Assembly (NCBI RefSeq): GCF_031181385.1
Contig: NZ_JAPSKV010000003.1
Coordinates: 310,001-374,000, forward strand
DNA from: Fredinandcohnia onubensis
GTDB lineage: Bacteria; Bacillota; Bacilli; Bacillales; Bacillaceae_L
Direction: 5' to 3'
Length of the DNA stretch: 64,000 nucleotides
A program made the translations under genes and the position numbers. Below, piece by piece: positions 43,329 to 59,786 of this stretch. A model generated the notes under the pieces. That model was not told the origin of the DNA and did no database searches. It saw only the letters and a list, made by a program, of their open reading frames with translations. Position 1 is the stretch's first letter. Every line of letters starts with the position of its first letter.

Positions 43329-44340
43329 AAGAAATCATTTGTTGGGACATATCTTCTATTTTTGTGAGGAAAATAAAGGACATCGCAACTGACCATGCTA
43401 ATGGAGTGTTTCCATTCGGTCTATTCGTTCCTCCAACATATAGCTCAGGAACCTCCCAATTATCAGGAACAACTCTCTTTGTTTTAGCTATATATTCACT
43501 TGCTTTATGAAATTGCCCTAATTCAAGGTAGCAAAGTCCCAACCATGGGAATCCAAAGCACCACTCTGCTTCTTTGCCTTCATTATAATACTGATCGTTT
43601 TCATATCGAATGACACCATACGTCCGCTCTAATTTAGAGGAAACGGTTTCAACAATCTTAATGGCTGTATCACGATCAACCACTCGATATGGAAATACAA
43701 GGCTTAGCAACGCTAAATCAGTATCTTTTGTTTCGCTTTCACGAGGTAATAAATTTCGGAGCGCTTCCTCGCCTTTTTTTATAAGATCTTCATTTACGTT
43801 AACAAGTATTTTGACGGCGTTAAGACCAGCCACACAGGCTCCTAAACTTGAAGCGTGGACTTCCATGTTTTCTTCCCACATACCATTATCCTTTGCTTGC
43901 CAATATTGCAAACATTCTAGATAATCAACAAGTTTTTGTATAATCTCTATATCCTTTTTATCTCGGATTACTTTTTGTCCTAGACGGTATCCTTCTCCAA
44001 CACCCCATAGAAAGGCTCCAATCGCATCGTTTTGGGCATGCCCCCATTCCACAGGCATTTCTTTTAGATCTGTTGAATAGCGTGAATGGATATATTCAAA
44101 TAAATAAATTGGCTTCTTTTTCCGATGGATATCAATTTTCCACTCGTAGCTTTTAAACATATCTAATAAAGCATGATAGGCTTTTGCATATCTTTCCGAT
44201 GGTTCATTGATAAACGGTAGAACTGTATATACTATGTCTCGAATCCACACGTAGCTGTAATCATTCGATAAACTTGCTGTATAAGCACCATTTGATAATC
44301 GCATACGGTCAAGAACCTGAATTGCTTTATTGGTATACAT
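43327..44340 (-). CDS. Glycoside hydrolase family 15-like protein
   Basis: 337 residues, an (alpha/alpha)6 barrel. SNDYSYVWIRDIVYTVLPF is the substrate-binding WxRD segment, GHAQNDAIGAFLW is typical of GH15, and NGMWEENMEVHASSLG holds the likely catalytic acid Glu. GKEAEWCFGFPWLGL may hold the second acid. It is shorter than classic glucoamylases, with no signal peptide. It probably acts on intracellular glucan, which fits its place next to the glg operon. ATG with GGGGTGA. Confidence 0.85.
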   Translation of the reverse strand: MYTNKAIQVLDRMRLSNGAYTASLSNDYSYVWIRDIVYTVLPFINEPSERYAKAYHALLDMFKSYEWKIDIHRKKKPIYLFEYIHSRYSTDLKEMPVEWGHAQNDAIGAFLWGVGEGYRLGQKVIRDKKDIEIIQKLVDYLECLQYWQAKDNGMWEENMEVHASSLGACVAGLNAVKILVNVNEDLIKKGEEALRNLLPRESETKDTDLALLSLVFPYRVVDRDTAIKIVETVSSKLERTYGVIRYENDQYYNEGKEAEWCFGFPWLGLCYLELGQFHKASEYIAKTKRVVPDNWEVPELYVGGTNRPNGNTPLAWSVAMSFIFLTKIEDMSQQMIS

Positions 44341-44582
44341 TTCGTATCACCCCATTAGCTTATTTAATATACATTCATTCTTGACAGAAATCCTATTTAT
44401 AAAACATATCAAAGTCAATTTAGGGTTTTTTAATAAATTAATACTTAATATTAATTTATACTTTATAATATGTAAGCACAACCAAAATGATAACAATTGT
44501 CTACTTTTTGTGTGAAACGCCTACATTTTAGTGCATGCATTCCTGAATTTCTTGTTTCACAGAAAATGTTTCATAAAACAGC

Positions 44583-44618
44583 AAAAGACCAAATCAAGTT
44601 TAGGTGATTTGGTCTTTT
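44583..44618 (-). terminator. Terminator of the MltG-like gene
   Basis: AAAGACCAAATCA pairs with TGATTTGGTCTTT across a loop of about 8 bases; minus-strand T run present. The sequence from 44341 to 44582 shows nothing else I can name. Confidence 0.85.
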
Positions 44619-44631
44619 CATGATGGTCTAT

Positions 44632-45141
44632 TTATTTGTTAAAAATTGTTGCTATAATCTCATCCGTTGTCATATTGCTGTTTATTTCGTGTGAGCCAAG
44701 CTTTAGGTATTTTGCAACTCCTTTTTTCTCAACAAGATTTGCAAAATCCCAGGCATCTCCGCTTATGATTTTAGCTGAAATAAGTGCTTTTCCGACTTCA
44801 TAGCTAGTCATACCTTCGGAAACAGTGATGACTGTTTTATGGACAACCGGCTCAGCGGGCTCTTCTTTCTTCTCTTCCTTCACTTCTTCTTTGCCTTCTT
44901 CTTTAGGTTGTTCTTTGACTTTTTCTGTGTTTTTCGCTCCAGCAATTGCATTGTTCCATTCTTCCTCTGTATGAACAACGTAGCCTTCTGCAGCAAGTTG
45001 GCCTTTTAGCTCCTCAACAGTTGGTTTTTCCTCAGAGCCAGAACTAGTTGCTTGTTGTGGTCCGGTAAAATATACAACGGCACAAACCGCTGAAGCAAGT
45101 AAAAGTCCAGAAGCAAAGCTAGTTAATGTTTTAGCGGTCAT
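44632..45141 (-). CDS. Membrane-anchored protein with MltG/YceG-like LysM-type domain
   Basis: About 169 residues: an anchor (LTSFASGLLLASAVCAVVYF), a Glu/Lys-rich linker (about 70-100), and a C-terminal domain (VSEGMTSYEVGKALISAKIISG ... KLGSHEINSNMTTDEIIATIF) resembling the substrate-binding subdomain of the transglycosylase MltG. The catalytic Glu domain of MltG is missing, so it probably binds rather than cleaves glycan. ATG at 45141 with AAGGGAG; it overlaps the upstream gene by 11 bases. Confidence 0.68.
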   Translation of the reverse strand: MTAKTLTSFASGLLLASAVCAVVYFTGPQQATSSGSEEKPTVEELKGQLAAEGYVVHTEEEWNNAIAGAKNTEKVKEQPKEEGKEEVKEEKKEEPAEPVVHKTVITVSEGMTSYEVGKALISAKIISGDAWDFANLVEKKGVAKYLKLGSHEINSNMTTDEIIATIFNK

Positions 45142-45514
45142 TTGCTGCTTTTCTCCCTTCTTTTTGTTTTGTAAAAGGAGACAGCATACTTTGTACTTCG
45201 ATTTCACTTATGTTCTTTTCGTTTGCAATACTTGATACAGAGTATCCTCTTTTATACAAATCGAGTACATCACGAAGTAACTCGTGTTGTTCCATATCTG
45301 TTGTATCAATTCCTGCTTGATTTTTAAGGATTTCATTATCTAATTCGAGGTTTCTGATTTGCTGCTGAAGCTTATTAATTTCCTCCATAAAACTAATCGA
45401 ATATAATTCAAGCTCACGCTGTTCTGCCTTTTTTGCCTTCTTCGTAAGTGCATAAGATAAAATGAGCAATACCGCTGCTACACCGAATAATATGACTAAC
45501 GCCCATTCCATCAT
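45131..45514 (-). CDS. Single-pass coiled-coil protein with C-terminal HTH-like segment, unknown function
   Basis: 127 residues: a membrane helix at 4-23 (ALVILFGVAAVLLILSYAL), a coiled coil at about 28-70, and LLRDVLDLYKRGYSVSSIAN, which looks like a helix-turn-helix-type or SwrB-like tail, near the end. No enzyme motif. It is translationally coupled to the MltG-like protein, so both may sit in one cell-envelope complex. ATG with AAAGGATG. Confidence 0.65.
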   Translation of the reverse strand: MMEWALVILFGVAAVLLILSYALTKKAKKAEQRELELYSISFMEEINKLQQQIRNLELDNEILKNQAGIDTTDMEQHELLRDVLDLYKRGYSVSSIANEKNISEIEVQSMLSPFTKQKEGRKAANDR

Positions 45515-45738
45515 TGGACATCATCCTTTCAACTTTTTGTCTTACAACAGTCAATTATACAATGAAATAAGACAAATTTCGATTGGTTTCGATAAAATAC
45601 TTCCATAGTCAGTGCGAATGGAAGATTTTAACGAGGATAAAAGCAGGGTTTCCGGTCTTTGGACCTATGTACAATGGGGAATTGGAAATTTTTTGATTTC
45701 ATATATAACCATTAATTACTAGCTGCTAAAATAAATAG

Positions 45739-45764
45739 ATGCCCCGTTCTATCGAACGAGACAT
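45739..45764 (-). terminator. Possible terminator of the dioxygenase gene
   Basis: ATGCCCCGTTC and GAACGAGACAT pair with one or two mismatches around TATC. The T-rich stretch on the minus strand (TCTATTTATTTT) is modest. Confidence 0.45.
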
Positions 45765-45778
45765 CCTATATGCTGGAG

Positions 45779-46756
45779 TTATTCTTTTACAAATTCTTTT
45801 GTACTTCTTACGGTATCAATAGGTCGAACATAGCTTTCGATAGCGTCACGCTTTGGCTCAAGGAATGGAGGTAATGATAGCTTTTCTCCGAGTGTTTCAT
45901 AAGGTTCATCCCCCATAAACCCTGGGCCATCTGTCGCAAACTCAAATAATATTCCAGGAGCCACTCTAGAATAAAGAGAGCCGAAGAAGAAGCGGTCAAC
46001 AAAGCCTGAAGTTTGGAATCCGAAGCCGCGAAGATGTTTGTCCCATGCTTCAAGTACTGACTTATCCTCAACGCGAAAAGCAGCATGGTGGACTGTTCCA
46101 AAACCTTGTTGTCCTCCTGGAAGAATTGTGTTATTTTCAACGACAACTTGTGCCCCATTTCCACCTTCTCCTACCTCAAATAAGTGGAACGAGCCTTCTT
46201 GAGCAATTTCTTTAAATTGTAATACTTTTTCAAGCATTTCCTTAAAGAAATCAAAATGTGCAGTTCGTACAAATAACGGTCCCAAACCAGTGATCGCATA
46301 TTCTAAAGGAATAGGTCCTTTTTGCCATGGAGTTCCTGCTGGTACACCATTATTGTTTTCATCCGAAACCAATTGATATTGTTGATCATCAAAGTCAACG
46401 AAGGATAAAGTTTTCACTCCGAATTGCTCTTTTATACCGAAATGTTTAATATCTAAACGATTAAAACGTTTTTCCCAATATTCAATCGCAGCATCTGTTG
46501 GAACACGGAAAGATGTTTTTGAGATTTCATTTGTCCCATGAACCCCTTTTGGAATCCCTGGAAAATCGAAAAAGGTCATATCTGTTCCTGGGCTGCCTGT
46601 ATCATCCGCAAAAAACAAGTGATATGTTTGAATATCATCTTGGTTTACTGTTTTTTTGACTAATCTCATTCCTAATACATAAGTGAAAAATTCATAGTTT
46701 TTCTCCGCACTACTCGTAATTGCAGTGACGTGGTGTATTCCTTTTAAAGTGTTCAT
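45779..46756 (-). CDS. Ring-cleaving dioxygenase, VOC superfamily (MhqO/MhqA-like)
   Basis: 325 residues with two VOC modules. GIHHVTAITSSAEKNYEFFTYVLGMRLVKKTVNQDD is the hallmark N-terminus, with metal ligands likely in GIHHVTA, in GTVHHAAFRVED and in the Glu of GILFEFATDGPGF. B. subtilis relatives help detoxify quinones and hydroquinones. ATG at 46756 has GGGGG 8 nt upstream; an earlier in-frame start five codons up lies in that box. No MhqR-type regulator adjoins. Confidence 0.88.
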   Translation of the reverse strand: MNTLKGIHHVTAITSSAEKNYEFFTYVLGMRLVKKTVNQDDIQTYHLFFADDTGSPGTDMTFFDFPGIPKGVHGTNEISKTSFRVPTDAAIEYWEKRFNRLDIKHFGIKEQFGVKTLSFVDFDDQQYQLVSDENNNGVPAGTPWQKGPIPLEYAITGLGPLFVRTAHFDFFKEMLEKVLQFKEIAQEGSFHLFEVGEGGNGAQVVVENNTILPGGQQGFGTVHHAAFRVEDKSVLEAWDKHLRGFGFQTSGFVDRFFFGSLYSRVAPGILFEFATDGPGFMGDEPYETLGEKLSLPPFLEPKRDAIESYVRPIDTVRSTKEFVKE

Positions 46757-46922
46757 TCTATATGCCCCCATTAGTCTGTCTTAATACTAGTTTCTCCAAT
46801 GAGCAATAAACTAATATAGAGAAAATAATCTCTTAAGTTAAAATATCTTAAATTCAAGATAATTATATAATGTAATTTAGTATGTGTCAATAAAAGCATT
46901 GTTAATTCCATTGTAAAACAGA

Positions 46923-46950
46923 AAAGTCCCCACTATTTTGTAGGGACTTT
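46923..46950 (-). terminator. Terminator after larC
   Basis: AAGTCCC and GGGACTT with about a 12-base loop, followed by TTC on the minus strand. It starts 9 bases beyond the larC stop, leaving no room for a larC2 segment. Confidence 0.7.
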
Positions 46951-46958
46951 AAGTCACA

Positions 46959-47849
46959 TTATTCTCCAATAATAACGCGGAGGACATTAGGTCGATCTTT
47001 AAATGTTTTTGTACCAGCTCCGTAGCCAATCGATGTTACCTTCATTGAAGGAAAGCTACAAAATTCTTCAGTCAGGACGGAAACGATTCCTGCCCCTGTA
47101 GGAGTTGTGAGTTCAAAACGAATATCACTTTGTTCAATTGGAACTCCTTTTAGAATTTCAAGTGTGGCAGGTGCAGGAACTGGGTAGATACCATGATCAA
47201 TATGGATTTTACCTGTTCCCACTGGTACGGATGATGATTTAATAGTAGTTATTTCAAGTTGGTGCAATAAGATTGCGGCTCCTACTATATCAATAATGGA
47301 ATCAACAGCGCCTACTTCATGAAAATGAACTTTGTCCAAAGGAAGTCCATGAATAAGCCCTTCCGCTTCGCCAATTTTTCTGAATACTTTAAGTGATGTT
47401 TCCTTTACTTCGGGTGTAAGATCAGACTCTTCTATCATCTTCACAATATCCTTGTAAGAACGATGTGAATGGTGATGATGACCATGGTCATGACTGTGAT
47501 CATGGTCATGATGATGGTCGTGGCCGTGACTGTGACCATGTCCATGATGATGATCGTGGCTGTGACCATGACTGTGATCGTGTTCATGATGATGGTCGTG
47601 GCTGTGATCATGACTGTGATCGTGATCATGCGTGTGATTACTGCCATCGTTTTTTAAAATGACATCAAATTTTGTAGAAGTGATCCCATTTTTCACGACT
47701 TTTTTCCATTCTAATTCGTATTCATCTTCAAAATGAAGTTTCTTTAATTCCTGAACTAGTACTTGTGGATCAGCTCCTGCATCCAATAATGCACCAATTA
47801 CCATATCCCCACTAATCCCGGAAAAACAGTCAAAATATAGTGTTTTCAT
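46959..47849 (-). CDS. larC: Nickel-pincer cofactor synthesis protein LarC, N-terminal part only (LarC1)
   Basis: 296 residues. MKTLYFDCFSGISGDMVIGALLDAG opens the nickel-insertion domain; a His-rich tract of about 60 residues (roughly 70-130, repeats of HDHSHDHHH) is a nickel store or ligand region. VHFHEVGAVDSIIDIVGAAILL, PVPAPATLEILKG and ELTTPTGAG follow, and the chain ends at PNVLRVIIGE. In full LarC a C-terminal CTP-binding domain (LarC2) follows, made in Lactiplantibacillus plantarum by a -1 frameshift; nothing like it lies in the 40 bases before the terminator. The start directly abuts the larB stop. Confidence 0.88.
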   Translation of the reverse strand: MKTLYFDCFSGISGDMVIGALLDAGADPQVLVQELKKLHFEDEYELEWKKVVKNGITSTKFDVILKNDGSNHTHDHDHSHDHSHDHHHEHDHSHGHSHDHHHGHGHSHGHDHHHDHDHSHDHGHHHHSHRSYKDIVKMIEESDLTPEVKETSLKVFRKIGEAEGLIHGLPLDKVHFHEVGAVDSIIDIVGAAILLHQLEITTIKSSSVPVGTGKIHIDHGIYPVPAPATLEILKGVPIEQSDIRFELTTPTGAGIVSVLTEEFCSFPSMKVTSIGYGAGTKTFKDRPNVLRVIIGE

Positions 47850-48605
47850 CTATTTTACGTTCTCCTTCTGAGCAAGTTGATCAATTAATACTGCGCTGTA
47901 GGCACCGCCGAAACCGTTGTCGATGTTCACAACACTGATTCCTGATGCACAAGAATTAAGCATCGTAAGCAGTGCTGACAGACCTTGAAAATTAGCCCCA
48001 TATCCAATGCTAGTTGGGACTGCAATAATTGGATGGGATACGAGCCCTCCAACTACACTTGGCAATGCGCCTTCCATTCCAGCGACAACAACGGAAACAT
48101 TTGCGTTCCTAATTTCATCAATATTATCGAATAAGCGATGGATGCCCGCTACCCCCACATCGTAAAAACGTCGAACAGTACTACCTAATACTTCAGCGGT
48201 AATAGCAGCCTCTTCAGCAACTCTTAGATCAGATGTTCCAGCACAAACAATAGCAACATAGCCATCTCTTTGTTTGTGATCTTGCGTAGTGTCCGTCCAA
48301 TATAGAATTTGAGCTGTTTCATTATAAACAAACTCAGGATTTGATTGTAAAATAAAGTCCGCCTTGTCCTGTGAAATTCTTGTTACAAGGACATTGTCTC
48401 CACGTCCCTTTATCACATTGACAATGGTTTGAATTTGTTCTTTTGTCTTGCCCTCACCAAAAACAATTTCAGGGAAACCCTGCCTGTTTTTCCGATGATG
48501 ATCGATTTTTGCAAAACCTAAATTCTCATATGTTGCAAGCTGTTGCTTCGCATCATCAATACTTAAAGTTCCTTGTTTCACTTGCTTTAAAATTTCTTCT
48601 ACCAT
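47850..48605 (-). CDS. larB: Nickel-pincer cofactor biosynthesis protein LarB
   Basis: 251 residues. After an N-terminal helical part (LKQVKQGTLSIDDAKQQL and FPEIVFGEGKTKEQI), the PurE-like core shows YVAIVCAGTSDLRVAEEAAITAEVLG, RFYDVGVAGIHRLF, VVVAGMEGALPSVVGGL and the C-terminal NIDNGFGGAYSAV. LarB carboxylates and hydrolyses nicotinic acid adenine dinucleotide to the pyridinium dicarboxylate mononucleotide, the first step of the cofactor. ATG with AAGGTG. Confidence 0.93.
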   Translation of the reverse strand: MVEEILKQVKQGTLSIDDAKQQLATYENLGFAKIDHHRKNRQGFPEIVFGEGKTKEQIQTIVNVIKGRGDNVLVTRISQDKADFILQSNPEFVYNETAQILYWTDTTQDHKQRDGYVAIVCAGTSDLRVAEEAAITAEVLGSTVRRFYDVGVAGIHRLFDNIDEIRNANVSVVVAGMEGALPSVVGGLVSHPIIAVPTSIGYGANFQGLSALLTMLNSCASGISVVNIDNGFGGAYSAVLIDQLAQKENVK

Positions 48606-48663
48606 GTTGTTTCACACACCTTAATCGATTTGTCGATCGATTTTAGAATCTATGTATATCCTA

Positions 48664-48688
48664 AAGCGCCAGTATCAATCTGACGCTT
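48664..48688 (-). terminator. Hairpin between gntK and larB
   Basis: AAGCGTCAG and CTGGCGCTT pair over nine positions around ATTGATA, just after the gntK stop. No T run follows, so it may only attenuate or stabilise the transcript. Confidence 0.35.
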
Positions 48689-48692
48689 CCAT

Positions 48693-50165
48693 TTAGAAAT
48701 GTTTGATAATATCTTTTTCAATTGCTTCATATTTTGCGTATATGTTTTTGTATTTTTCATGGTTTTCCATATTTGGTACGACAGGATCACCCATTGGAAT
48801 ATTGTTTTTGATCTCTTCAAATGAGTTAGCTTTACCAATGCCAACTAGTGCTGTCCAAGCTGCACCCCATGCTGCACTATGATGGCTTTCTGGAACATAA
48901 ACCTCTTTACCAAATACATCAGCCAGCATTTGAAGCCATAATGAAGAACGTGCCATTCCACCGTTAACGTATAGTTTTTCGGTCTCTCCAGCTTGTTTTT
49001 CTAATGCTTGGCCGATTTGATATAGATTAAATGTAATTCCTTCTAGTACGGCACGTACAAAGTGCTCTTTTTTATGCGTAACAGACATTCCGAAGAAATT
49101 TCCACGTGCTTGCTGGTTCCATAAAGGAGCTCGTTCTCCATTTATATAAGGATGGAAAAACAAACCATCAGCACCAGGTCCTACCTTAGCAGCCTCTGCT
49201 GTAAAATGATCAAAGCTTTCCTGATAATTAAGAAGTTCTTTTAACCATTGAAGAGCGATTCCACCATTGTTTGTAGGGCCACCAACAATAAAATATTCTT
49301 CTGAAAAAGCATAACAGAAGGTTTCATGGCTTGTATTGGATTGGAATCCTTTTGTAAATTGACGAATAGCTCCGCTTGTTCCAACTGTTACAGCAACTTC
49401 ACCAGGAGATATCGCTCCAATTCCTAAATTTGCAAACTGACCATCAGCTGCTCCGATGATAAATGGCATCTCACTTGATATCCCCATTTCATCAGCAATT
49501 GTTGGGTTCATTTCGGTTAATTTATAGGTCGGTGGTACGATTTTTGAAAGCATGTTCTCTGAAATACCAGCTTTGTTAAGGACCTCTTCATCCCATTGGA
49601 ATGTGTTACCGTTAAACATTCCGGTTGCTGATGCCATTGCATAATCAATAACACGTTGATTAAACCATTTTAGAAGTAAATATTCTTTAATGGATAGGAA
49701 ATAGCTTGCTTGGTTATATGGAATATAATCATTTTCCCTCATCCAAATGAGCTTTGCTAAAGGTGACATCGGGTGAATCGGCATACCGGTTCTTGAAAAA
49801 ATTTCAAGGCCGTCTGATTCCATAAGTTCATTTGCTTGTTTTGTACTTCTACCGTCTGCCCAAATCAATGCTTGAGAAAGAGCCTCTCCATTTTCCCCCA
49901 TACAAATGAGGGAATGCATTGCCGCTGAAATACCTAAGCTAATAATTTCATCTTTGTTAACATTCGCTTGCCGAATAGCCATATTAATTGCTTTTACAGC
50001 AGAGCGCTCAATTTCATCAGGGTCTTGCTCAACCCATCCTTGCTTCGGATAGTAAGAGGTAACTAGATCCTCTGCTTCTGCAACTACCCTACCATCTAAG
50101 GTAAAGATTACTGCTTTTGCACTGGTTGTCCCAAGATCGAGACCAATAACGTACTCATGTGACAT
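48693..50165 (-). CDS. gntK: Gluconokinase (FGGY family)
   Basis: 490 residues. The ATPase fold is complete: YVIGLDLGTTSAKAVIF, GISAAMHSLICM, TGMPIHPMSPLAKLIWM (typical of gluconate kinases), IIGAADGQFANLGIGAI, VGTSGAIRQF and GGMARSSLWLQMLADV. It phosphorylates D-gluconate to 6-phosphogluconate. It lies between the larE and larB genes, and gnd, which uses its product, lies upstream, which supports gluconate as substrate. ATG with AAGGAAG. Confidence 0.88.
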   Translation of the reverse strand: MSHEYVIGLDLGTTSAKAVIFTLDGRVVAEAEDLVTSYYPKQGWVEQDPDEIERSAVKAINMAIRQANVNKDEIISLGISAAMHSLICMGENGEALSQALIWADGRSTKQANELMESDGLEIFSRTGMPIHPMSPLAKLIWMRENDYIPYNQASYFLSIKEYLLLKWFNQRVIDYAMASATGMFNGNTFQWDEEVLNKAGISENMLSKIVPPTYKLTEMNPTIADEMGISSEMPFIIGAADGQFANLGIGAISPGEVAVTVGTSGAIRQFTKGFQSNTSHETFCYAFSEEYFIVGGPTNNGGIALQWLKELLNYQESFDHFTAEAAKVGPGADGLFFHPYINGERAPLWNQQARGNFFGMSVTHKKEHFVRAVLEGITFNLYQIGQALEKQAGETEKLYVNGGMARSSLWLQMLADVFGKEVYVPESHHSAAWGAAWTALVGIGKANSFEEIKNNIPMGDPVVPNMENHEKYKNIYAKYEAIEKDIIKHF

Positions 50166-50240
50166 CCCTACATCTTCCTTCGTTCAATCGTATTTTCGTT
50201 AGTTTGCGACTTAATGTTACCATATTATTCTTTCAAATGA

Positions 50241-50270
50241 AAAAGCTTTGGAAAGATTCCCAAAGCCTTT
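50241..50270 (-). terminator. Terminator between larE and gntK
   Basis: GGCTTTGGG and CCAAAGCTTTTT form a clear stem on the minus strand with loop AATCTTT. It divides the larA-SDR-larE transcript from gntK-larB-larC. On the plus strand it also ends in CTTTTCTTCTT. Confidence 0.7.
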
Positions 50271-50286
50271 TCTTCTTATGATTCGT

Positions 50287-50429
50287 GTTCAAAAAGGAGG
50301 ATGAAAAGGACCGAGAATTTCAAAGCGGCGCAGTTTTGAGTAGCGGAACGTATGTACTTTATACGTGAGCAACGGAAAAACAAGCCAACGAAGAAATTCG
50401 AAGTGTCATTTTTACCGGACTTTTTGAAC
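50287..50429. repeat. 143-base intergenic structured element with inverted ends
   Basis: The ends are GTTCAAAAAG (50287-50296) and CTTTTTGAAC (50420-50429), a perfect 10-base inverted repeat. Between them lie further complementary stretches, including CGTATGTACTTTATACG as a central hairpin. It is non-coding. I recall similar elements in intergenic regions of several Bacillaceae, but copy number cannot be checked here. Confidence 0.6.
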
Positions 50430-50437
50430 ATCCTCTC

Positions 50438-51238
50438 TTAAGAAAGTACTTTATTCATACTTCCACTCTTATACCCTACTAAATCTAGTGTTATATACTT
50501 ATAGCCAATTGCATTTAGCTCTTTTGTAATGACTTCATGTTTTTCTAAGACAATTTTCATGTCGTTAGGTTCAACCTCAATCCTTGCAATATCTTGATGT
50601 GTGCGAACACGAACTTGGCGAATTTCAAGAGTTTTAAGGAATTCCTCTGCTCTTTCGACCTTCGTAAGTTTTTCGATTGTGATTTTTTCACCGTAAGCAA
50701 TTCGAGAAGATAGACATGCGAAAGATGGTTTATTCCAAGTAGGTAAATCGAATTCATGGGATAATTCCCTAATTTCGTCTTTAAAAAGATTTGCCTCTTG
50801 TAATGGTCCACGAATGCCTTTTTCCTTAGCTGCCTTCATTCCAGGTCGAAATTCATTCATATCATCCGCAATGACTCCATACACAACATTTTGATAGCCT
50901 TCACGTTCCATAACAGGAATGAGATGATCAAATAGACTGCTCTTACAGAAATAACAACGATTTTTGTCATTTTCTGTGTAGCCTGGAATGGCAAGCTCTG
51001 ATGTTTCAATCACTCGATGGTTGGCACCTATATGTCTTGCTAGAACTTGAGCTTCCTTAAGCTCAGTTGAGGGATATGTTTCTGAGTCAGCAGTTACCGC
51101 CAAAACATTTTCTTTCCCAAGAGTGTCGACAGCAACCTTAAGTAAAAAGGTACTGTCAACACCACCGGAAAATGCAACTACAACAGATTCCATCTCTCGG
51201 AGAATTGACACAAGCTTTTGATACTTTTCATCGATCAT
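50438..51238 (-). CDS. larE: Nickel-pincer cofactor sulfur-insertion enzyme LarE
   Basis: 266 residues, PP-loop ATP pyrophosphatase. VVAFSGGVDSTFLLKVAVDTLG is the SGGxDS loop; KNRCYFCKSSLFDHL, VVYGVIADDMNEFRPGMKA and KPSFACLSSRIAYGEKIT are typical of LarE. The Cys in SFACLSSR is at the position of the sacrificial sulfur donor Cys of L. plantarum LarE. It converts both carboxylates of the precursor to thiocarboxylates. ATG with GGGGGAG. Confidence 0.93.
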   Translation of the reverse strand: MIDEKYQKLVSILREMESVVVAFSGGVDSTFLLKVAVDTLGKENVLAVTADSETYPSTELKEAQVLARHIGANHRVIETSELAIPGYTENDKNRCYFCKSSLFDHLIPVMEREGYQNVVYGVIADDMNEFRPGMKAAKEKGIRGPLQEANLFKDEIRELSHEFDLPTWNKPSFACLSSRIAYGEKITIEKLTKVERAEEFLKTLEIRQVRVRTHQDIARIEVEPNDMKIVLEKHEVITKELNAIGYKYITLDLVGYKSGSMNKVLS

Positions 51239-51321
51239 TGTCTTCTCCCCCTTTTCTCCCGGTTGTAAATTAGATATCTACTTTATATATATAGCCTCAT
51301 GACGCATAAAAGAAGTTTGAA

Positions 51322-52092
51322 TTAGATGGTCATGCTTCCAAATCCGCCATCAACGCGAAGGAATGTACCAGTTACAAAGCTTGAAGCGTTCTCTGAAGCT
51401 AAGAAGACAGCTGCTCCTTTTAGCTCATCTGGATTACCGAAACGATTCATCGGAGTGTGACCCATGATGGATGCAACACGCTCTTCACTTAAGATTTTAC
51501 GATTTTGCTCAGCTGGGAAGAATCCAGGAATAATTGCATTTACACGAATGCCGTGTGGCGCAAATTCTCTAGCTAAGAACTGAGTCATGCTGTTAACACC
51601 AGCTTTTGAAACTGAATAAGTAAATACTTTAGATAGAGGTGTTGTAGAAGAAACGGAAGAAATATTAATAATACTTCCTTTGCGTTCTTGTTCAATCATT
51701 CTCTTTGCGAAAATTTGAGTCGCAACCACATAACCTTTTAGGTTAACGTCCATGATTTTGTCATACTCGTCCATGTCAAGTTCAAAGAATGGAGTAGGAC
51801 TATTCATACCTGGTGCATTTAGGAGGATATCAATTCCACCTGACCAAGCTACAATTTCATTTGCAGCATTTTCAAGTGATTCACGTGAAAGAACGTCTGC
51901 TGCGAAAGCTTTCGCAACGCCACCTTCTGCTTCAATTTCTTTTACAACTGCTTCTGCTTTTTCAAGGTTACGACCAACGATAGCAACTTTAGCGCCATGT
52001 TCAGCAAATCCTTTACAAATAGAAGAACCTAGGACACTATTTCCACCAATAGCTACAGCCGTTTTTCCAGTTAAGTCAAATAATTTAGTCAT
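51322..52092 (-). CDS. SDR oxidoreductase, probable fructuronate reductase/mannonate oxidoreductase (UxuB-like)
   Basis: 256 residues, Rossmann fold. The cofactor loop is GGNSVLGSSI, a variant of TGxxxGIG; NAPG stands where NNAG is usual; Ser, Tyr and Lys of the active site are in ISSVSSTTPLSKVFTYSVSKAG. IIPGFFPAEQNRKIL resembles B. subtilis UxuB (YjmF). The proposed reaction is D-fructuronate to D-mannonate with NADH. Gluconate 5-dehydrogenase is the main alternative. It lies between the LarA-like gene and larE. ATG with AAGGGGA. Confidence 0.75.
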   Translation of the reverse strand: MTKLFDLTGKTAVAIGGNSVLGSSICKGFAEHGAKVAIVGRNLEKAEAVVKEIEAEGGVAKAFAADVLSRESLENAANEIVAWSGGIDILLNAPGMNSPTPFFELDMDEYDKIMDVNLKGYVVATQIFAKRMIEQERKGSIINISSVSSTTPLSKVFTYSVSKAGVNSMTQFLAREFAPHGIRVNAIIPGFFPAEQNRKILSEERVASIMGHTPMNRFGNPDELKGAAVFLASENASSFVTGTFLRVDGGFGSMTI

Positions 52093-52166
52093 GTCTATTC
52101 CCCTTTTTTCTTATGTATTATACCGAAATCTGTTCATGGGGGCTTCCCCCCACATAACAAGAATTA

Positions 52167-53432
52167 CTATAGGTTTCCGTTTTCGTCAAAATCGAAATCG
52201 TAAAGATCTGAAGCCTGTTCCATGTTTGGATGTTGTTTAATGTAATCAAGTAACGCTTCCGATACTTCAATTTCGCTTACATGTAAGGTATCTTTAATAC
52301 GAACCATTTTAACTGTTGTAAAATCTAAGATATTACATGTTTTGATTGCTGCTTGGATTGCTTCTTTATCGTTTGGTAATGTTGTTGCAATTTTCGTTGG
52401 TGCAACAACCGTTGAAGTAAGTCCATTCGCATAAGTGAAATCGCGGTCCATTTTATCCACAAGGCGTTGTGTCGTGAAGTCGGCAGTACCAACACCGTTT
52501 GCATTACCTTCTGTTTCTGGAGTGAGATCAAGAACAACCATTTTGTTCACTTCAGGACCACCGTGTGCATATGGAGTAGGATAGCGACCTGTTATATTAG
52601 GATCCATACCGTCGCCGCTTATATTTTTACCAATTTGATCGATGACAAGGACATCGATTTGATCGAAGAATAACTTAGGTAGTAATTTTTTTGCTTGTGC
52701 TTGTAGTTCAGGTTCCTTTTCGACAATTTCATCTGGGAGCATAATATCAAGTACAGCAACTTTGTCAAATGCATTTTCGACAGTGGCTACACCAAAAAGA
52801 ATAGGCGTTTTTTCCATGATCATCTGCGCCATTGCTGGAACATTTTCTGCCATGTATTTAAATCCTAATTGATGGCAAGCTTCTGCTCCTTTTTGTTTTC
52901 CAAGGCCGATACTGATCATCTTCTGAATACCACTTTCTACAGAACCACGGAAGGCTGTATGTGGTTTAACGCGGTTAATAACTACAATACCGTCAGCTTT
53001 TGAGGCATATTTATCAATATAAACAGGTAATCCGTTTGCTAATTCGCCCAGCTTTACAACTTCCATTGAAGAGCGAATTTCACAACCAACACTTTCTTCA
53101 GTCACACCAAGATGCTTTAAAACTTCACGTTGTCCATCTCCTGTTGCACCACCATGGCTTCCCATACTAGGTACGATGAAAGGAGTACCACCTTGTTCTT
53201 TAATAAATTCAACTGTTGTTTTCGTGAGGTCAACTAAACGGTCAATACCACGGCTTCCTACTGCGATTGCAATTTCCATGCCTGGTTTAATTGTCTGTTT
53301 TACTTCTTCACGTTGTAGTTTATTTGTTAACTCTTCTACTAAATTTTCGATTTTTGAGTCATCGAAATTTTGTTTCACTTTGAGCATTTTTGGAACAGGA
53401 ATATCCCGTAGTAACTCTTGGAGAATACCCAT
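52167..53432 (-). CDS. larA: LarA-family nickel-pincer racemase/epimerase
   Basis: 421 residues, DUF2088 plus C-terminal domain. PSMGSHGGATGDG contains His93; INRVKPHTAFRGSVESGIQKMISIGLG has His158 and Lys171, the latter at the place of the Lys that binds the nickel-pincer nucleotide; His187 is in ACHQLG. It replaces the GGAKS-type loop of lactate racemase with SGIQKM, so it is a LarA homologue and may have another substrate. With the UxuB-like SDR, GntK and Gnd, C2 epimerisation of D-mannonate to D-gluconate is plausible; some LarA homologues have been reported to act on gluconate. ATG with AAGGAGGAG. Confidence 0.85.
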   Translation of the reverse strand: MGILQELLRDIPVPKMLKVKQNFDDSKIENLVEELTNKLQREEVKQTIKPGMEIAIAVGSRGIDRLVDLTKTTVEFIKEQGGTPFIVPSMGSHGGATGDGQREVLKHLGVTEESVGCEIRSSMEVVKLGELANGLPVYIDKYASKADGIVVINRVKPHTAFRGSVESGIQKMISIGLGKQKGAEACHQLGFKYMAENVPAMAQMIMEKTPILFGVATVENAFDKVAVLDIMLPDEIVEKEPELQAQAKKLLPKLFFDQIDVLVIDQIGKNISGDGMDPNITGRYPTPYAHGGPEVNKMVVLDLTPETEGNANGVGTADFTTQRLVDKMDRDFTYANGLTSTVVAPTKIATTLPNDKEAIQAAIKTCNILDFTTVKMVRIKDTLHVSEIEVSEALLDYIKQHPNMEQASDLYDFDFDENGNL

Positions 53433-53475
53433 GATAAAACTCCTCCTTATATAAGCGTTCCATCTATAAAATTAG

Positions 53476-53489
53476 TTTACGCGTTTTCA
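53476..53489. promoter_or_regulatory. Weak cre-like site upstream of the larA operon
   Basis: Read on the minus strand, TGAAAACGCGTAAA differs from the cre consensus at two positions. It lies 44 bases upstream of the larA ATG. CcpA control is only a possibility. Confidence 0.3.
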
Positions 53490-53590
53490 CAAAACTGTGT
53501 CTCTATTTAAACAAAGTTAAATGACAACAAAACAGTAGTGGCTCAAAAATATGTAATCCCTTACATGGGATGATGCAATTTTAACAAACA

Positions 53591-53619
53591 AAAGCCGGGG
53601 TTCCATTGATGAAACCCCA
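53591..53619 (-). terminator. Terminator of gnd
   Basis: GGGGTTTCATC and the complementary GGAACCCC region form a stem (GGGGTT/AACCCC core), followed on the minus strand by GGCTTTTGTTTG. Confidence 0.75.
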
Positions 53620-53629
53620 ACAATGTGTT

Positions 53630-55042
53630 TTATTCCATCCAGTTTGTATGGAAAGTTCCTTCTTTGTCTACACGTTGATATGTGTGAGCACCGAAGTAGT
53701 CACGTTGTGCTTGAAGAAGGTTTGCAGGTAATGTTTCAGTACGGTAGCTATCATAGTATGCAACTGCACTTGAGAAACTTGGAACAGGAATTCCGTTTTC
53801 AATAGCAAGTGAAATCACTTTACGTAATGAAGCTTGGTAACCTTCTGCAATTTCCTTGAAATATGGGTCTAATAATAAGTTTGGTAATTGGCCGTCACGG
53901 TCATATGCATCTTTAATTTTTTGTAGGAATTGTGCACGGATGATACATCCACCACGGAAGATCATTGCAATTTCACCGTAGTTTAAATTCCAATTATATT
54001 CTTCAGAAGCTACACGCATTTGCGCGAAACCTTGTGCATAAGAAATGATTTTACTTAAGTAAAGTGCTTTACGTACTGCTTCAATAAGTTCTTGTTTGTC
54101 TCCATTAAATCCTTCAGCAGATGGGCCTGAAAGAACTTGACTTGCTTTTACACGCTCATCCTTCATTGCAGAGATAAAACGAGCAAATACAGATTCAGTG
54201 ATAATTGGTAGTGGAACACCTAAATCTAATGCGTTTTGGCTAGTCCATTTACCAGTACCTTTTTGACCTGCAGTATCAAGAATAACATCAACAAGTGGTT
54301 TACCTGTTTCTTCATCCTTTTTAGTGAAAATATCTGCAGTTATTTCAATTAGGTAGCTATCTAGTTCACCTTTGTTCCATTCAGCAAATACTTCATGAAG
54401 TTCGTCAGTGCTTAATCCGAGAACATTTTTAAGAATGAAGTAGGCTTCGCAAATCAATTGCATATCGCCGTATTCGATTCCGTTGTGAACCATTTTTACA
54501 TAGTGTCCTGCACCGTTTGGTCCGATATATGTACAACATGGATCGCCTGATACTTTAGCAGAAATTGCTGTTAAGATAGGCTCAACAAGTTCATATGCTT
54601 CTTTTTGTCCACCAGGCATGATTGAAGGGCCTTTTAATGCTCCCTCTTCCCCACCAGAAACTCCAGTTCCGATGAAGTGGATGCCAGTTGATTCTAATTC
54701 TTTGTTACGACGAATTGTATCTTGGAAGAATGTGTTACCACCATCAATTAAGATATCGTTTTCTTCAAGATATGGTTTTAAAGATTCAATTGTTGCATCA
54801 GTTGCTGGGCCAGCTTTAACCATTAATAAAATCTTACGTGGTTTTTCTAGGGAATTTACAAATTCCTCAATCGTTTTTGCGCCAACAAAGTTTTTACCAG
54901 TTGCTTCATTATTAAGAAACTCTTCTGTTTTTTCATATGAACGGTTAAAAACAGCAACAGAGTAACCTCTGCTTTCTATATTTAACGCTAAGTTTTTACC
55001 CATTACTGCTAATCCAACTACACCAATTTGTTGCTTAGACAT
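53630..55042 (-). CDS. gnd: 6-phosphogluconate dehydrogenase, decarboxylating
   Basis: 470 residues. [23 protein letters not shown] is the dinucleotide loop with a following NR pair (FNRS) typical of NADP enzymes; [19 protein letters not shown] and [15 protein letters not shown] are the substrate signature with the catalytic Lys. It makes ribulose 5-phosphate, CO2 and NADPH. Its own terminator separates it from the larA operon, but it takes the product of gntK. ATG at 55042 with AAAGGTATG. Confidence 0.94.
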
Positions 55043-55296
55043 TTAAATCATACCTTTCTACTTATGTATTCAATGATAGAAAACACGTCATGATGTTATT
55101 TTGCGTATCTTTTAAAATGATTATGACAAATTATTTTTAAAAGATTATGTAGTACCCAAATAATTAATTTGTTTCCTAAACTAATTATTTATATATAGAA
55201 GAATATACTGTTTGCTCCAATTCGTCAACTGTTGAAATTTGTAGTTTCTATGAAGTTCTTAAACTACCTTTTTTATAAATCTCATAAATTTATTAA
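55043..55296. other. Divergent region between gnd and ilvD
   Basis: AT-rich; must contain the gnd promoter. I see no T-box or leader-peptide attenuator for ilvD. Confidence 0.35.
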
Positions 55297-55324
55297 TTGA
55301 TTATCTTAAAAATAGTGTTACAAT
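55297..55324 (+). promoter_or_regulatory. Probable SigA promoter of ilvD
   Basis: TTGATT (55297-55302) and TACAAT (55319-55324) are separated by 16 bases, about 55 bases before the ilvD ATG. Confidence 0.45.
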
Positions 55325-55379
55325 GAATAATAATTTAAATTTTTTGATTTTACGCATCACTTATATGGAGGTAACTTAA

Positions 55380-57059
55380 ATGGCAGAATTACGTAGTAAT
55401 ATGATTAAATCAGGGTTTGATCGAGCTCCTCATAGAAGCTTGCTTCGTGCAGCAGGAGTACAAGAAGAGGACTTTAACAAACCATTTATAGCAGTAGTAA
55501 ACTCATATATCGATATTGTTCCAGGTCATGTTCATTTACAAGAGTTTGGAAAAATTGTTAAGGAAGCAATTCGTGAAGCTGGTGGAGTTCCATTTGAAAT
55601 GAACACAATTGGTGTTGACGATGGAATTGCAATGGGTCATATAGGAATGAGATATTCCCTACCAAGTCGTGAGATTATTGCCGACTCAGTTGAGACGGTT
55701 GTATCTGCACACTGGTTTGATGGAATGGTTTGTATTCCGAACTGTGACAAAATCACCCCAGGTATGATGATGGCAGCAATGCGTCTAAACATCCCTACTA
55801 TCTTTGTTAGTGGTGGTCCAATGAAAGCTGGTCGTGACGCGGCAGGAAATCCCCTCAACCTTAATTCTGTTTTTGAAGGTGTTGGAGCTTATCAATCTGG
55901 TAAAATTGATGAAGCTAGATTAACAGAGATTGAACAATTCGCTTGCCCTACTTGCGGATCTTGTTCTGGTATGTTCACAGCAAACTCAATGAACTGCCTA
56001 GCTGAAGGACTTGGTCTTGCTCTTCCAGGTAATGGAACTATTCTAGCAGTTTCCGAAGAAAGAAAAGAATTTGTTAAAAAATCTGCTAAACAATTAATGA
56101 ATTTAATAGAAAAAGATATTAAACCACGTGATATTGTCACAGTTGATACAATCGACAATGCATTTGCTTTAGATATGGCAATGGGTGGCTCAACAAACAC
56201 AGTACTTCACACTCTTGCGTTAGCAAATGAAGCTGAAATTGAGTATTCTTTAGAACGTATTAATGAAATCGCAGCTCGTGTACCACACTTAGCAAAAATT
56301 GCCCCTGCTTCTGATCATCATATTGAAGATGTACACAATGCTGGTGGCGTTAGTGCAATTATTAATGAATTGCTCAAAAAGCCTGGTGCCATTAATGGAG
56401 ATTGCTTAACGGTTACAGGTAAAACCTTACGTGAAAACGTGGAAGGCTGTGAGATTACCGATCACGATGTTATCCGTCCACTTGAAAATCCACATTCTGA
56501 ACAAGGTGGATTAGCGATTTTATTTGGTAACCTAGCTCCTGAGGGTGCTGTCGTTAAGGTAGGAGCGGTTGATCCTTCGGTTGGCGGATACCACAGAGGC
56601 CCTGCTGTTTGTTATGATTCTCAAGAAGATGCTCTTTCTGGAATCATTGTTGGTAAAGTAAAAGAAGGCGATGTTGTTGTCATCCGCTATGAAGGCCCTA
56701 AAGGTGGTCCAGGTATGCCAGAGATGCTAGCTCCTACATCTCAAATTGTTGGTAGAGGCCTTGGTGCAAAAGTTGGCTTAATAACAGATGGACGCTTCTC
56801 AGGTGCATCTAGAGGAATCTCAATCGGACATATCTCTCCAGAAGCAGCTGAAGGTGGCCCGATTGCATTCGTTCAAGATGGCGACATGATTGAGTTAGAT
56901 TTAAATAATCGTAAAATCACATTAGAAATTTCTGATGAAGAGTTTGAAAGACGTAGAGCCGAGTGGAAGGGCTTTGAACCAAAAGTGAAAAAAGGCTATC
57001 TTGCTCGCTACTCAAAACTTGTTACAAATGCAAGTACTGGTGGGATAATGAAAATCTAA
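55380..57059 (+). CDS. ilvD: Dihydroxy-acid dehydratase
   Basis: 559 residues, the full length for Ilv[23 protein letters not shown] is nearly identical to the B. subtilis enzyme. Iron-sulfur ligands are in [17 protein letters not shown] and [23 protein letters not shown]. It dehydrates 2,3-dihydroxy-isovalerate and -methylvalerate in branched-chain amino acid synthesis. Sugar-acid dehydratases are relatives, and its neighbours use sugar acids, but the close match to IlvD favours the amino acid role. ATG with GGAGGT. Confidence 0.93.
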
Positions 57060-57080
57060 TCTAATAATCTATTAAAAAAA

Positions 57081-57109
57081 GCCTGGTTCAATCTGAATCA
57101 GGCTTTTTT
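57081..57109 (+). terminator. Terminator of ilvD
   Basis: GCCTGGTTCA and TGAATCAGGC pair with one mismatch around ATC, followed by six T. Confidence 0.85.
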
Positions 57110-57232
57110 CTTTGCGATACGTTGAGAATTGTGAAGTTAAGAACTTGCTGATAAAATAAGAAATATAATTATTTTTGTCTATCGATTTAGTGGTGACTCT
57201 GAAACAAAACCGCTTTAAATGGAGTGAATAAA

Positions 57233-57775
57233 ATGAGTGGAGATAAAAAATTACTAGGCGAACAACGAAGAGAAACGATTATTAAATGGTTAAAGGAAAG
57301 CCCCACCCCAATCATTGGTGAGGAGTTATCAAGACGAGCAAATGTAAGCCGCCAGGTCATTGTTCAGGATATCTCGTTATTAAAGGCGAAAAATGAACCA
57401 ATCGTTGCCACTAGCCAAGGCTATATTTATTTGCAAGAACAGCCCAAGCAAGAAAACTTTACACGCATTATTGCGTGTAAACACACATCTGAGGAAACCG
57501 CGAAAGAACTAAATATTTTGGTAGACCATGGAGTAATCGTTCGTGATGTAATTGTGGAACATCCTGTATATGGAGATATTACAGGTTCCTTAATGATAAA
57601 GAATCGATTCGAGGTAAAACGTTTTGTCGAAAGAGTATCTGAAACAAATGCCACCCTTCTCTCGTTGTTGACAAATGGTGTGCATCTACATACGATTGAG
57701 GCGGATTCCAATGAAAAAATCAATGCAGCCTGTGAAGCTTTACGTGAAGAGAATATTTTATTTAGTGACCAGTAA
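57233..57775 (+). CDS. niaR: NiaR-type NAD biosynthesis repressor (3H domain)
   Basis: 180 residues. A winged helix at about 5-65 (RRETIIKWLKESPTPIIGEELS, NVSRQVIVQDISLLKAKNEPI) is followed by the 3H ligand domain with its conserved His residues in ACKHTSEE, VEHPVYGD and GVHLHTIEA. It represses NAD synthesis and niacin uptake genes when nicotinic acid is bound. None of its usual targets is nearby. ATG at 57233 with GGAGTG; a GTG inside that box is rejected. Confidence 0.88.
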   Translation: MSGDKKLLGEQRRETIIKWLKESPTPIIGEELSRRANVSRQVIVQDISLLKAKNEPIVATSQGYIYLQEQPKQENFTRIIACKHTSEETAKELNILVDHGVIVRDVIVEHPVYGDITGSLMIKNRFEVKRFVERVSETNATLLSLLTNGVHLHTIEADSNEKINAACEALREENILFSDQ

Positions 57776-57783
57776 GATGAATT

Positions 57784-57816
57784 AAGCAACAGCCTTGTGA
57801 GGACTGTTGCTTTTTT
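57784..57816 (+). terminator. Terminator of niaR
   Basis: AAGCAACAG and CTGTTGCTT with an 11-base loop, then six T. It separates niaR from the convergent htpG. Confidence 0.85.
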
Positions 57817-57819
57817 AGA

Positions 57820-59700
57820 TCACACCATAATCTTACAGATATCATTTGTAAATTCTACTGGGTCTTGAATTGGTAGGCCTTCAATAAGAAGGGCTTGATT
57901 GTACAATAAGTGAGTATATAAATCTAACTTCGTTTGATCGTTTTCAAATGCATTTTTCAATGATTGGAAGACTTCGTGTTGTACGTTGATCTCCAGCACT
58001 TTATCAGCTTTAATATTTTGGTTATCTGGCATGGCATTTAGCACTTTCTCCATTTCAATGGAGATTTCACCATCTGTTGATAAGCAGACTGGATGTGTTT
58101 TAAGACGTTTTGAAATTCTTACATCGGTTACCTTGCCAGCTAATGCATTTTTCATGTATTCAAATAGCTCTTTGTTCTCGTTTTGTTCTTCTTCCGTTGC
58201 TTTGTCGTTTTCATTTGGTTCAAAACCTAGATCGCTGCTTGATACAGATTTGAATTCTTTTTCTTTGTAATTCATGAGCATTTTAATCGCAAACTCATCA
58301 ATATCCTCTGTGAAATAAAGGATTTCATAGCCCTTATCAGCCACTAATTCTGTTTGTGGTAGTTTATCGATTCGTTCTACTGAATCACCAGTTGCATAAT
58401 AAATATGTTTTTGATCTTCCGACATTCTAGATACATATTCATCTAATGTGACAAGCTTTTTCTCCTTGGAAGAATAGAAGAGTAACAAATCTTGTAATGT
58501 TTCCTTATTGCTTCCGAAATCACTATACACACCAAATTTTAATTGGCGACCAAAGCTATCATAGAACTTTTCATAGTTGTCGCGTTCATTCTTTAACATG
58601 CTTTGTAATTCGCTCTTTATTTTCTTATTGATGTTTTTGGCAATCAGCTTTAATTGTCGATCCTGCTGCAGCATTTCTCTTGAAATATTAAGCGATAAAT
58701 CCTCAGAATCTACCAACCCCTTAACAAAGCTAAAATAATCTGGAAGCAGGTCGGCGCATTTGTTCATTATTAAAACCCCGTTTGAGTAGAGCTCAAGTCC
58801 CTTCTCGTACTCCTTTGAATAATAGTCAAAAGGAATATTTTCAGGTATATATAATATTGCATTGTAACGGATCGTCCCATCAACACTAATATGAATATGT
58901 TTTAATGGCTTATCAAAACCATAGTGTTTTTCATTATAGAATTTTTCATAGTCTTCATCTGTTAGTTCGCTTTTGCTCTTTCTCCAAATTGGAACCATGC
59001 TGTTAATGACTTGTTCCTCTGTTACCTGCTCGTATTCAGATTCGCTTCCCTCTTTAAGTTTACTTGTTGTAACATCCATCTTAATTGGGTAGCGAATGAA
59101 ATCTGAATACTTTTTAATAATTGATTTTAAGCGGTATTCTTCTAAAAATTCATCATACGTTTCATCTTCTGTGTTTTCTTTGATTTTTAAAATGATATCA
59201 GTACCGACTGAATCTTTTTCCACAGTTTCAATTGTATATCCATCGGCACCCGTTGATTCCCATTTATATGCTTCTTCACTGCCCAGTGCTTTACTTACGA
59301 CAGTGACAACATCTGCAACCATGAAAGCAGCATAAAATCCAACACCGAATTGACCAATGATATCGTGACCATCTTTAATTTCCGTTTCCTTTTTAAAAGT
59401 TAAGGAACCACTTTTTGCAATTGTTCCAAGATTCGTTTCTAGCTCTTCCTTTGTCATACCGATTCCGGTATCAGAAATGGTAAGAGTTCTGTTATCCTTG
59501 TCGGTGGTAATTTTGATAAAGTAGCTATCTTTATCAAATTGATAACGATCATCGGTTAGCGCCTTATAGTAGATTTTATCAATCGCATCGCTTGAGTTTG
59601 AGATTAGTTCCCTTAAGAATACTTCTCTCTGTGTATAAATGGAGTTAATCATCATTTCTAATAACCTTTTAGACTCTGCTTTAAACTGTTTTTTTGCCAT
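57820..59700 (-). CDS. htpG: Hsp90-family chaperone HtpG
   Basis: 626 residues. The GHKL ATP site is intact: [13 protein letters not shown] (Glu and Asn), [24 protein letters not shown]. The middle domain has the arginine-bearing [10 protein letters not shown], and the chain ends without MEEVD, as in bacteria. ATG at 59700 has AAAGGGGA; 11 in-frame codons upstream are not needed. A SigA promoter and a CIRCE operator precede it. Confidence 0.95.
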
Positions 59701-59775: not shown

Positions 59776-59786
59776 CACCCAATTTT

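Follow-up and report, generated by a model that had tools for sequence, protein, structure and literature searches.

GntE2 of Thermotoga maritima, a LarA homologue that depends on the nickel-pincer nucleotide (NPN), has demonstrated activity on D-mannonate (PMC7583248), and T. maritima carries the gene set gnd-uxaE-uxaD-gntE-gntK as well as a kdgAK-uxuBA operon (PMC3750489, excerpt). Here we analysed a 64,000-nucleotide stretch of the genome of Fredinandcohnia onubensis (the window; assembly GCF_031181385.1, contig NZ_JAPSKV010000003.1, positions 310,001 to 374,000; the genome, G000, comprises 4.26 Mb in 39 contigs), in which a block of seven genes resembles that system. As in T. maritima, a putative NPN-dependent C2 epimerase, encoded by the gene we call larAH, is accompanied by gnd, an oxidoreductase and a gntK-like kinase, and the proposed flow runs from mannonate to gluconate and into the pentose phosphate pathway (PMC7583248 and PMC3750489, excerpts). 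Unlike GntE, the window protein belongs to another LarA group and bears Thr-Ala instead of Glu-Ser or Glu-Val after its catalytic histidine, and it found neither a solved LarA nor any other relative among Protein Data Bank (PDB) chains with phmmer at 1e-3, though 4nar was among its fold matches, at rank 13. In keeping with a T. maritima-type pathway, the genome encodes uronate isomerase (two UxaC), and its Gnd is linked to the epimerase.

Mannonate is likewise an intermediate in the galacturonate pathway of Lactobacillus suebicus, whose upper isomerase route reaches 6-phosphogluconate, as does the route proposed here. Unlike in our proposal, mannonate is phosphorylated first there: extracts turned mannonate and ATP into 6-phosphomannonate, gave no gluconate when ATP was left out and also converted 6-phosphogluconate to 6-phosphomannonate, UxuA, KdgK and KdgA were not detected in the proteome, and the genes are left unassigned in the excerpt of the source (PMC6978723). 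In addition to a GntE from Phytophthora, a D-gluconate-epimerising enzyme outside the typical GntE, LarAH10, has been described, with convergent evolution raised as a possible explanation (PMC11770544, excerpt). Since LarAH10 lies outside the typical GntE, the mannonate/gluconate step already occurs in more than one LarA group, and group 22, the group of the window protein, would be a further one. With LarA, LarB, LarC and LarE of Lactobacillus plantarum the locus shares the cofactor genes and the catalytic histidine pair; unlike in L. plantarum, the LarA group is another, the halves of LarC lie at unlinked loci, and LarE is of the CXXC-C type (Cys95, Cys98 and Cys175), a cysteine set that has been linked to a [4Fe-4S] cluster and is absent from L. 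plantarum LarE (PMC9283937, excerpt). Among the papers listed, titles and abstract openings offered no assignment of group 22 or of this operon (supplements, including Table S1 of PMC7583248, which may already give group 22 neighbours, lay outside the search), and the term 'group 22' does not occur in the main texts of PMC7583248, PMC11770544, PMC12611868 and PMC11796402.

We consider it likely that the group 22 enzyme encoded by larAH is a D-mannonate/D-gluconate 2-epimerase in glucuronate catabolism, loaded with NPN by the products of the block together with a LarC2 from a second locus. LarB, LarE and LarC1, encoded in the window, would make NPN with this LarC2 and load it into the LarA homologue. 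UxaC, encoded elsewhere in the genome, would convert glucuronate to D-fructuronate, which the short-chain dehydrogenase/reductase (SDR) of the block would reduce to D-mannonate; the group 22 enzyme would then invert C2 to give D-gluconate, presumably by the LarA mechanism, in which a hydride passes to NPN and two histidines exchange the proton. The FGGY kinase would phosphorylate D-gluconate to 6-phosphogluconate, and Gnd would turn this into ribulose 5-phosphate and CO2. All substrates and reactions of this route are inferred from genes, their families, conservation and linkage, and from presence or absence across genomes. In its own genome, where no mannonate dehydratase was detected, mannonate would be used by way of this route, and in many relatives it would run beside UxuA.

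Seven genes lying together on one strand, as the first-pass annotation of this DNA had it, were borne out by the ORF list of the window and by family matches (Table 1). That annotation had also traced the route from fructuronate through mannonate, gluconate and 6-phosphogluconate to ribulose 5-phosphate, which remains the best reading on account of the uronate genes found elsewhere in the genome, the kept gene order and two contiguous rows in another family, all described below; in view of PMC6978723 (excerpt), the kinase may act on either side of the epimerase step. Elsewhere in the genome we found two UxaC (763.3 and 721.4 bits, both on contig C17 and both over the glucuronate isomerase cut-off) and no match for UxuA, in a search that was positive in 5 of 14 control genomes, Bacillus subtilis included. 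An enolase-type ManD was considered as a hidden UxuA and rejected: three proteins exceeded the PF13378 cut-off and none was a ManD, two of them being MenC (423.0 and 384.4 bits, cut-off 200.65) and the third scoring 142.8 against 550 for ManD and passing no cut-off among the listed families. The window gnd is the sole one of four matches in the genome to exceed the TIGR00873 cut-off.

Table 1. Features of the larAH block and its flanks, in window coordinates.
Feature	Position	Strand	Basis
gnd, NADP-dependent 6-phosphogluconate dehydrogenase, 470 aa	53630..55042	-	TIGR00873, 777.3 bits (cut-off 426.7)
Terminator-like stem-loop with T tail, between gnd and larAH	53594..53621	-	consensus match only
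larAH, 421-aa NPN-dependent isomerase of group 22; putative D-mannonate/D-gluconate 2-epimerase	52167..53432	-	NF052515
His93 codon; counterpart of catalytic His108 in LarA	53154..53156	-	weak alignments and invariance
His158 codon; counterpart of catalytic His174 in LarA; Thr159-Ala160 come next	52959..52961	-	weak alignments and invariance
Codon of Lys171, proposed equivalent of NPN-binding LarA Lys184	52920..52922	-	motif and spacing
Codon of His187, proposed equivalent of NPN-binding LarA His200	52872..52874	-	spacing and invariance
SDR, proposed fructuronate reductase/D-mannonate oxidoreductase (UxuB function)	51322..52092	-	NF006132, 281.3 (cut-off 281); best full-length PDB relative 1vl8, 'gluconate 5-dehydrogenase' (1.6e-44)
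larE, sulfur transferase of NPN synthesis	50438..51238	-	TIGR00268, 367.2 bits (cut-off 150)
FGGY kinase, proposed to act on gluconate (or mannonate)	48693..50165	-	TIGR01314, 494.8 (cut-off 648.55)
larB, carboxylase of NPN synthesis	47850..48605	-	NF033503, 305.6 (cut-off 175)
larC1, N-terminal part of nickel insertase, His-rich stretch	46959..47849	-	PF01969; TIGR00299, 221.9 (cut-off 90)
Terminator-like stem-loop 3' of larC1	46923..46950	-	consensus match only

Conservation of the gene order was assessed by scanning for close larAH orthologues, which returned 39 loci (best segments 71-100% identical); neighbours were counted, with identity thresholds, at loci with enough contig to show the gene. 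The order proved to be widely kept. The SDR gene followed larAH within 300 bp at all 37 loci with room for it. Further partners were larE (at most 1.5 kb away, 30 of 36 loci), the kinase gene (at most 3.5 kb, 28 of 35) and larB (at most 5.5 kb, 28 of 34). On the upstream side, gnd was found within 2.5 kb at 11 of 37 loci and uxaC within 300 bp at 12 of 38 (15 of 39 anywhere in the locus, the same count as for larC2). Genes of the cluster of UxaE (tagaturonate epimerase) occur in five loci (L041, L042, L043, L046 and L056), and UxaE itself was confirmed by Pfam in one, L042 (655.6 bits against 27.1). Two loci from another family of the phylum, L139 (genome G023) and L142 (G143), carry uxaC, gnd, a Gfo/Idh-like gene, a TIM-barrel-like gene, larAH, the SDR gene and the kinase gene in one row on one strand, the two '-like' names being given by likeness to clusters of other loci; no UxuA was found in these two genomes, which are 93% and 92% complete.

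A tree was built from 67 proteins, all of group 22, and the position relative to characterised LarA homologues was judged by family models and signature residues. In this tree a single change accounts for the operon-labelled set of 41, as in 78% of bootstrap trees. Counted in that label are L044 and L062, for which the next gene downstream is past the contig end or was not seen, and left out of it is L067 (the protein of L139, where the operon is present), which falls inside the same 42-row clade with support 99/92; three rows next to that clade are L065, L066 and L069, from loci L137, L138 and L140. In G011, a genome of the same genus, one group 22 gene appears as two matches about 1.7 kb apart (C3:388266-391156; L021 and L023), perhaps reflecting an insertion.

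The NPN synthesis set is complete in the genome, with LarC divided between two places. The window larC1 covers positions 1-234 of the 375 of PF01969, and the remainder (238-375) is covered by larC2 on contig C17 (G000:C17:25522-25938; L117 6498-6971; LarC2 model, 151.5 against a cut-off of 50), directly downstream of the second uxaC and behind a TRAP-type transporter, so named by reading its sequence. Because the halves stand on different contigs and the genome search gave no further LarC match, LarC would have to work here as two polypeptides. The two loci are truly far apart, as the coordinates on a single contig of the three-contig genome G008 show (larAH at C3:1138521, larC2 at C3:4517811). 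LarC2 was found in 8 of 9 genomes of the genus, our own included, and uxaC directly adjoins larC2 in 6 of the 8; through this adjacency, NPN synthesis is linked with uronate isomerase although the genes stand at two loci. Since other genera keep a single row of uxaC-larAH...larC1-larC2 (L035-L037 and L050 are examples), we infer a move of the larAH-larC1 block to the side of gnd in this genus, with uxaC-larC2 left behind. Neighbouring larC1-larC2 pairs of relatives have overlapping frames in 1 of 10 cases; a literature search on LarC frameshifting with nickel insertion returned no paper, and we leave the novelty of unlinked LarC halves unclaimed. In a relative from the same family, larC1 carries a very long His-Asp-rich repeat (L097 3310-5014; its ORF is 400 aa long, that of the window 296), and larC2 is a separate match downstream of it.

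The larAH product itself is a member of the NCBIfam family NF052515, 'nickel pincer cofactor-dependent isomerase, group 22' (565.5 bits, cut-off 400), whose name carries no substrate; the one proposed here is for one clade of it. It also matches Lar_N (PF09861; 38.1 bits, cut-off 23.3). A profile of 30 larAH orthologues reached a single solved structure, 2yjg, at E 0.35, and hhalign against the genome's own LarA covered 160 columns, all N-terminal, with a probability of 11.5%. An AF2 model built from the same orthologues (mean pLDDT 76) found 18 Foldseek matches at E <= 0.001, all of them LarA-family chains (best 1.4e-10; TM-score normalised to the query 0.42-0.51). With the sequence searches for solved relatives near-empty, the link to the LarA family thus rests on Lar_N, group 22 membership and Foldseek.

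His93 and His158 align with the catalytic histidine pair of LarA in two alignments that agree with each other and score weakly, and none of the 30 orthologues and none of the 20 diverse group 22 proteins departs from His93, His158, Lys171 or His187. Lys171 and His187 presumably serve as NPN-interacting residues, a role given to Lys184 and His200 of LarA (PMC7583248): their spacing of 16 residues equals that of K184-H200. The equivalence of Lys171 to Lys184 draws on motif and spacing, as hhalign against the genome's own LarA leaves Lys171 unaligned. The distance of Lys171 from the catalytic histidine is 13 residues, against 10 in LarA. The stretch SGIQKM, in which the first-pass annotation had seen a sign of a non-lactate substrate, is present; its worth as a substrate clue did not hold, because E166, S167, G168 and K171 are invariant in the 20 diverse group 22 proteins, which have quite different gene neighbours, and SGIQKM is therefore a mark of the group and not of a substrate. 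Asp64, constant in the 30 orthologues, recurs in 3 of the 20, all three from the larAH clade.

Several observations weigh against the proposed epimerase and its route. Within the protein, Thr159-Ala160 follow His158 in 30 of 30 orthologues, departing from the Glu-Val/Ser that marks GntE (groups 18-20) after the catalytic histidine (PMC7583248 and PMC11770544, excerpts), and the AF2 model is of poor quality in its C-terminal half, leaving the substrate pocket unseen. GntE also bears Ala and His at the positions of LarA W358/T359, in the C-terminal domain, where alignments of the window protein are untrustworthy. Two partner enzymes are softly named. The SDR exceeds the cut-off of the D-mannonate oxidoreductase model PRK08277 (NF006132) marginally, by 0.3 bit, and three homologues fall below it (268.8 in L042, 259.3 in L139 and 247.9 in L137). 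The kinase, which had been called gntK, does have the gluconokinase model TIGR01314 as its best match; its score falls under the curated cut-off, and gntK is thus a likely, unconfirmed name. As to gene linkage, uxaC does not adjoin larAH in the window genome, and in a neighbouring lineage (L137, L138, L140 and L141) the larAH-SDR pair is kept while no uxaC, kinase or gnd occurs in the examined stretches (3.6 kb in the case of L141). Among the C17 ORFs, the part of the genome that was searched for them, no uxaA- or uxaB-like gene was recognised.

The presence of UxuA in many relatives belongs on the same side. In the 37 genomes surveyed behind the 39 loci (leaving aside L045, which comes from the same metagenome-assembled genome (MAG) as L044, and L038), UxuA was present in 23 and absent from 14, one of these being a 2.1-Mb MAG that is perhaps incomplete. 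UxaC was found in all 14 (and in 19 of 19 in the whole set searched), which speaks for the route. A further set had UxuA in 5 of 15 genomes, several of which, by their contigs and coordinates, are identical to members of the 37, so the counts are not additive. The bypass of mannonate dehydratase that the first-pass annotation foresaw accordingly remains plausible for the genome at hand, where no UxuA was detected, and fails as a general rule. G007, of the same genus, has UxaC, and UxuA, a group 22 protein and LarC2 were all not found in it; UxaC without UxuA does not in itself require this route, as this pattern without a group 22 protein shows. Taken as a pattern of genes and short of proof, the data fit a bypass in some genomes and an extra route in others.

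Different orders of steps and different substrates were weighed against the same data. The FGGY kinase might phosphorylate D-mannonate first, leaving the group 22 enzyme to epimerise 6-phosphomannonate to 6-phosphogluconate. L. suebicus extracts follow this 6-phosphomannonate order (PMC6978723, excerpt), and a score under the gluconokinase cut-off would suit a kinase of this kind; we nevertheless hold it unlikely, as the NPN isomerases assayed in the excerpts of PMC7583248 and PMC11770544 acted on free 2-hydroxy acids and the best PDB relative of the kinase, 3gbt (8.9e-86), is named gluconate kinase. Moreover, 7 of the 35 loci with room have no kinase within 3.5 kb, so the epimerase need not travel with the FGGY kinase: L038 has its kinase farther off, L033 has an FGGY kinase of 41% identity farther off, and L041, L042, L048, L049 and L056 hold none of at least 50% identity.

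We also hold it rather improbable that another sugar acid, such as altronate, galactonate or a keto-uronate, is the substrate and that the gluconate genes are partly coincidental neighbours. Group 22 proteins elsewhere do stand beside DgoD-like enolases, KDG-kinase- and aldolase-like proteins and a D-threonate-kinase-like gene, one of them (L099) being 63% identical to the window protein and lacking the SDR, and the softness of the kinase and SDR names leaves room for such a substrate. Against it, these two genes are among the most constant partners of larAH, and gnd shares the row in L139 and L142; the substrate of Gnd is 6-phosphogluconate. An ordinary lactate racemase operon, which LarA homology and NPN synthesis genes might have suggested, was rejected as having next to no probability: the larAH product gives no match to the lactate racemase model NF033504 at E <= 0.001, in keeping with the non-lactate identity assigned to it at first, and the phmmer search reached no solved LarA; a separate LarA is encoded in the genome (558.1, NF033504 cut-off 460), and no lactate gene was recognised among the ORFs of 43000-60000. 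The epimerisation of free D-mannonate to D-gluconate is the reading we retain, and the pathway of the first-pass annotation is probably right. That pathway is already known from T. maritima GntE (PMC7583248 and PMC3750489, excerpts); the novelty is modest, being a LarA family other than GntE proposed for a step already described, alongside a LarC split over two loci.

Group 22 reaches well beyond this clade: of 398 genomes sampled across the phylum, 85 have a member over the cut-off. Neighbours were inspected in 17 and a further 6 stretches, with names given by sequence reading, and they vary: besides DgoD-like enolases and KDG-kinase-like proteins we found KDPG-aldolase-like proteins, IlvD/Edd-type dehydratases and FAD-linked oxidases. 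As the neighbours of its members differ, group 22 probably handles several acids, and its members seem to be C2 epimerases of sugar acids, each with a substrate of its own. The genome of F. onubensis itself holds two paralogues. One, on contig C26 (L094 8597-16857), stands beside a D-threonate-kinase-like protein (340.8, below the cut-off of 450), PdxA (380.6, cut-off 290.35), a GntP-family permease (316.4, cut-off 292.75), a PrpR-like regulator and a larE-like gene, the last named by sequence reading; the kinase-like, PdxA, GntP-family and LarE-like neighbours suggest that this paralogue acts on a four-carbon aldonate. The other, on C9 (L095 1-11949), lies next to a membrane protein read as NRAMP-type, with a BhcC-like protein (144.9, cut-off 690), a threonine-dehydratase-like gene and a TRAP-type transporter in the vicinity. 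The genome's own LarA (C16; L096 7134-12272) is flanked by glycerate kinase and a galactarate-dehydratase-like protein, and may racemise glycerate rather than lactate.

Regulatory features of the block were also inspected. Given the terminator-like stem between gnd and larAH, gnd may form a transcription unit apart from the larAH block in the window; terminator-like consensus matches in the region numbered 9, against 6.0 +/- 2.4 in shuffles. A catabolite-repression-like pattern had 21 matches in the window where 10.6 were expected, a number reached in 3 of 100 shuffles, and the larAH promoter holds a single such palindrome, with one mismatch, at 53552-53565. The upstream regions of larAH and of the first uxaC have a 14-mer in common (one mismatch), which may be due to chance. 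Palindromes and shared 14-mers were inspected for an operator common to the larAH, uxaC and TRAP promoters, and we make no claim of one. Two genes from gnd, at 57224-57775, the window encodes a protein with HTH_11 and 3H domains, a make-up that we take to be that of the niacin repressor NiaR. NPN derives from a niacin derivative.

In its widest form, the proposal sees group 22 as a toolkit of 2-epimerases for aldonates: one clade would close a route from glucuronate through mannonate and gluconate to the pentose phosphate pathway in Bacillaceae that lack mannonate dehydratase, a distant non-GntE enzyme taking the place of GntE, the C26 paralogue would handle a four-carbon aldonate, and the nickel insertase would consist of two polypeptides from unlinked operons; for this whole we see an even chance. 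Because the pathway is already known, the surprise is limited. The analysis nonetheless proposes a specific, testable substrate for a family of nickel enzymes that is widespread and goes by no more than 'group 22' in NCBIfam. It suggests that one more LarA group has adopted the step from mannonate to gluconate, and it points to a system whose LarC1 and LarC2 are too distant to be joined by a frameshift. If the proposal is true, some Bacillaceae depend on nickel for their use of glucuronate.

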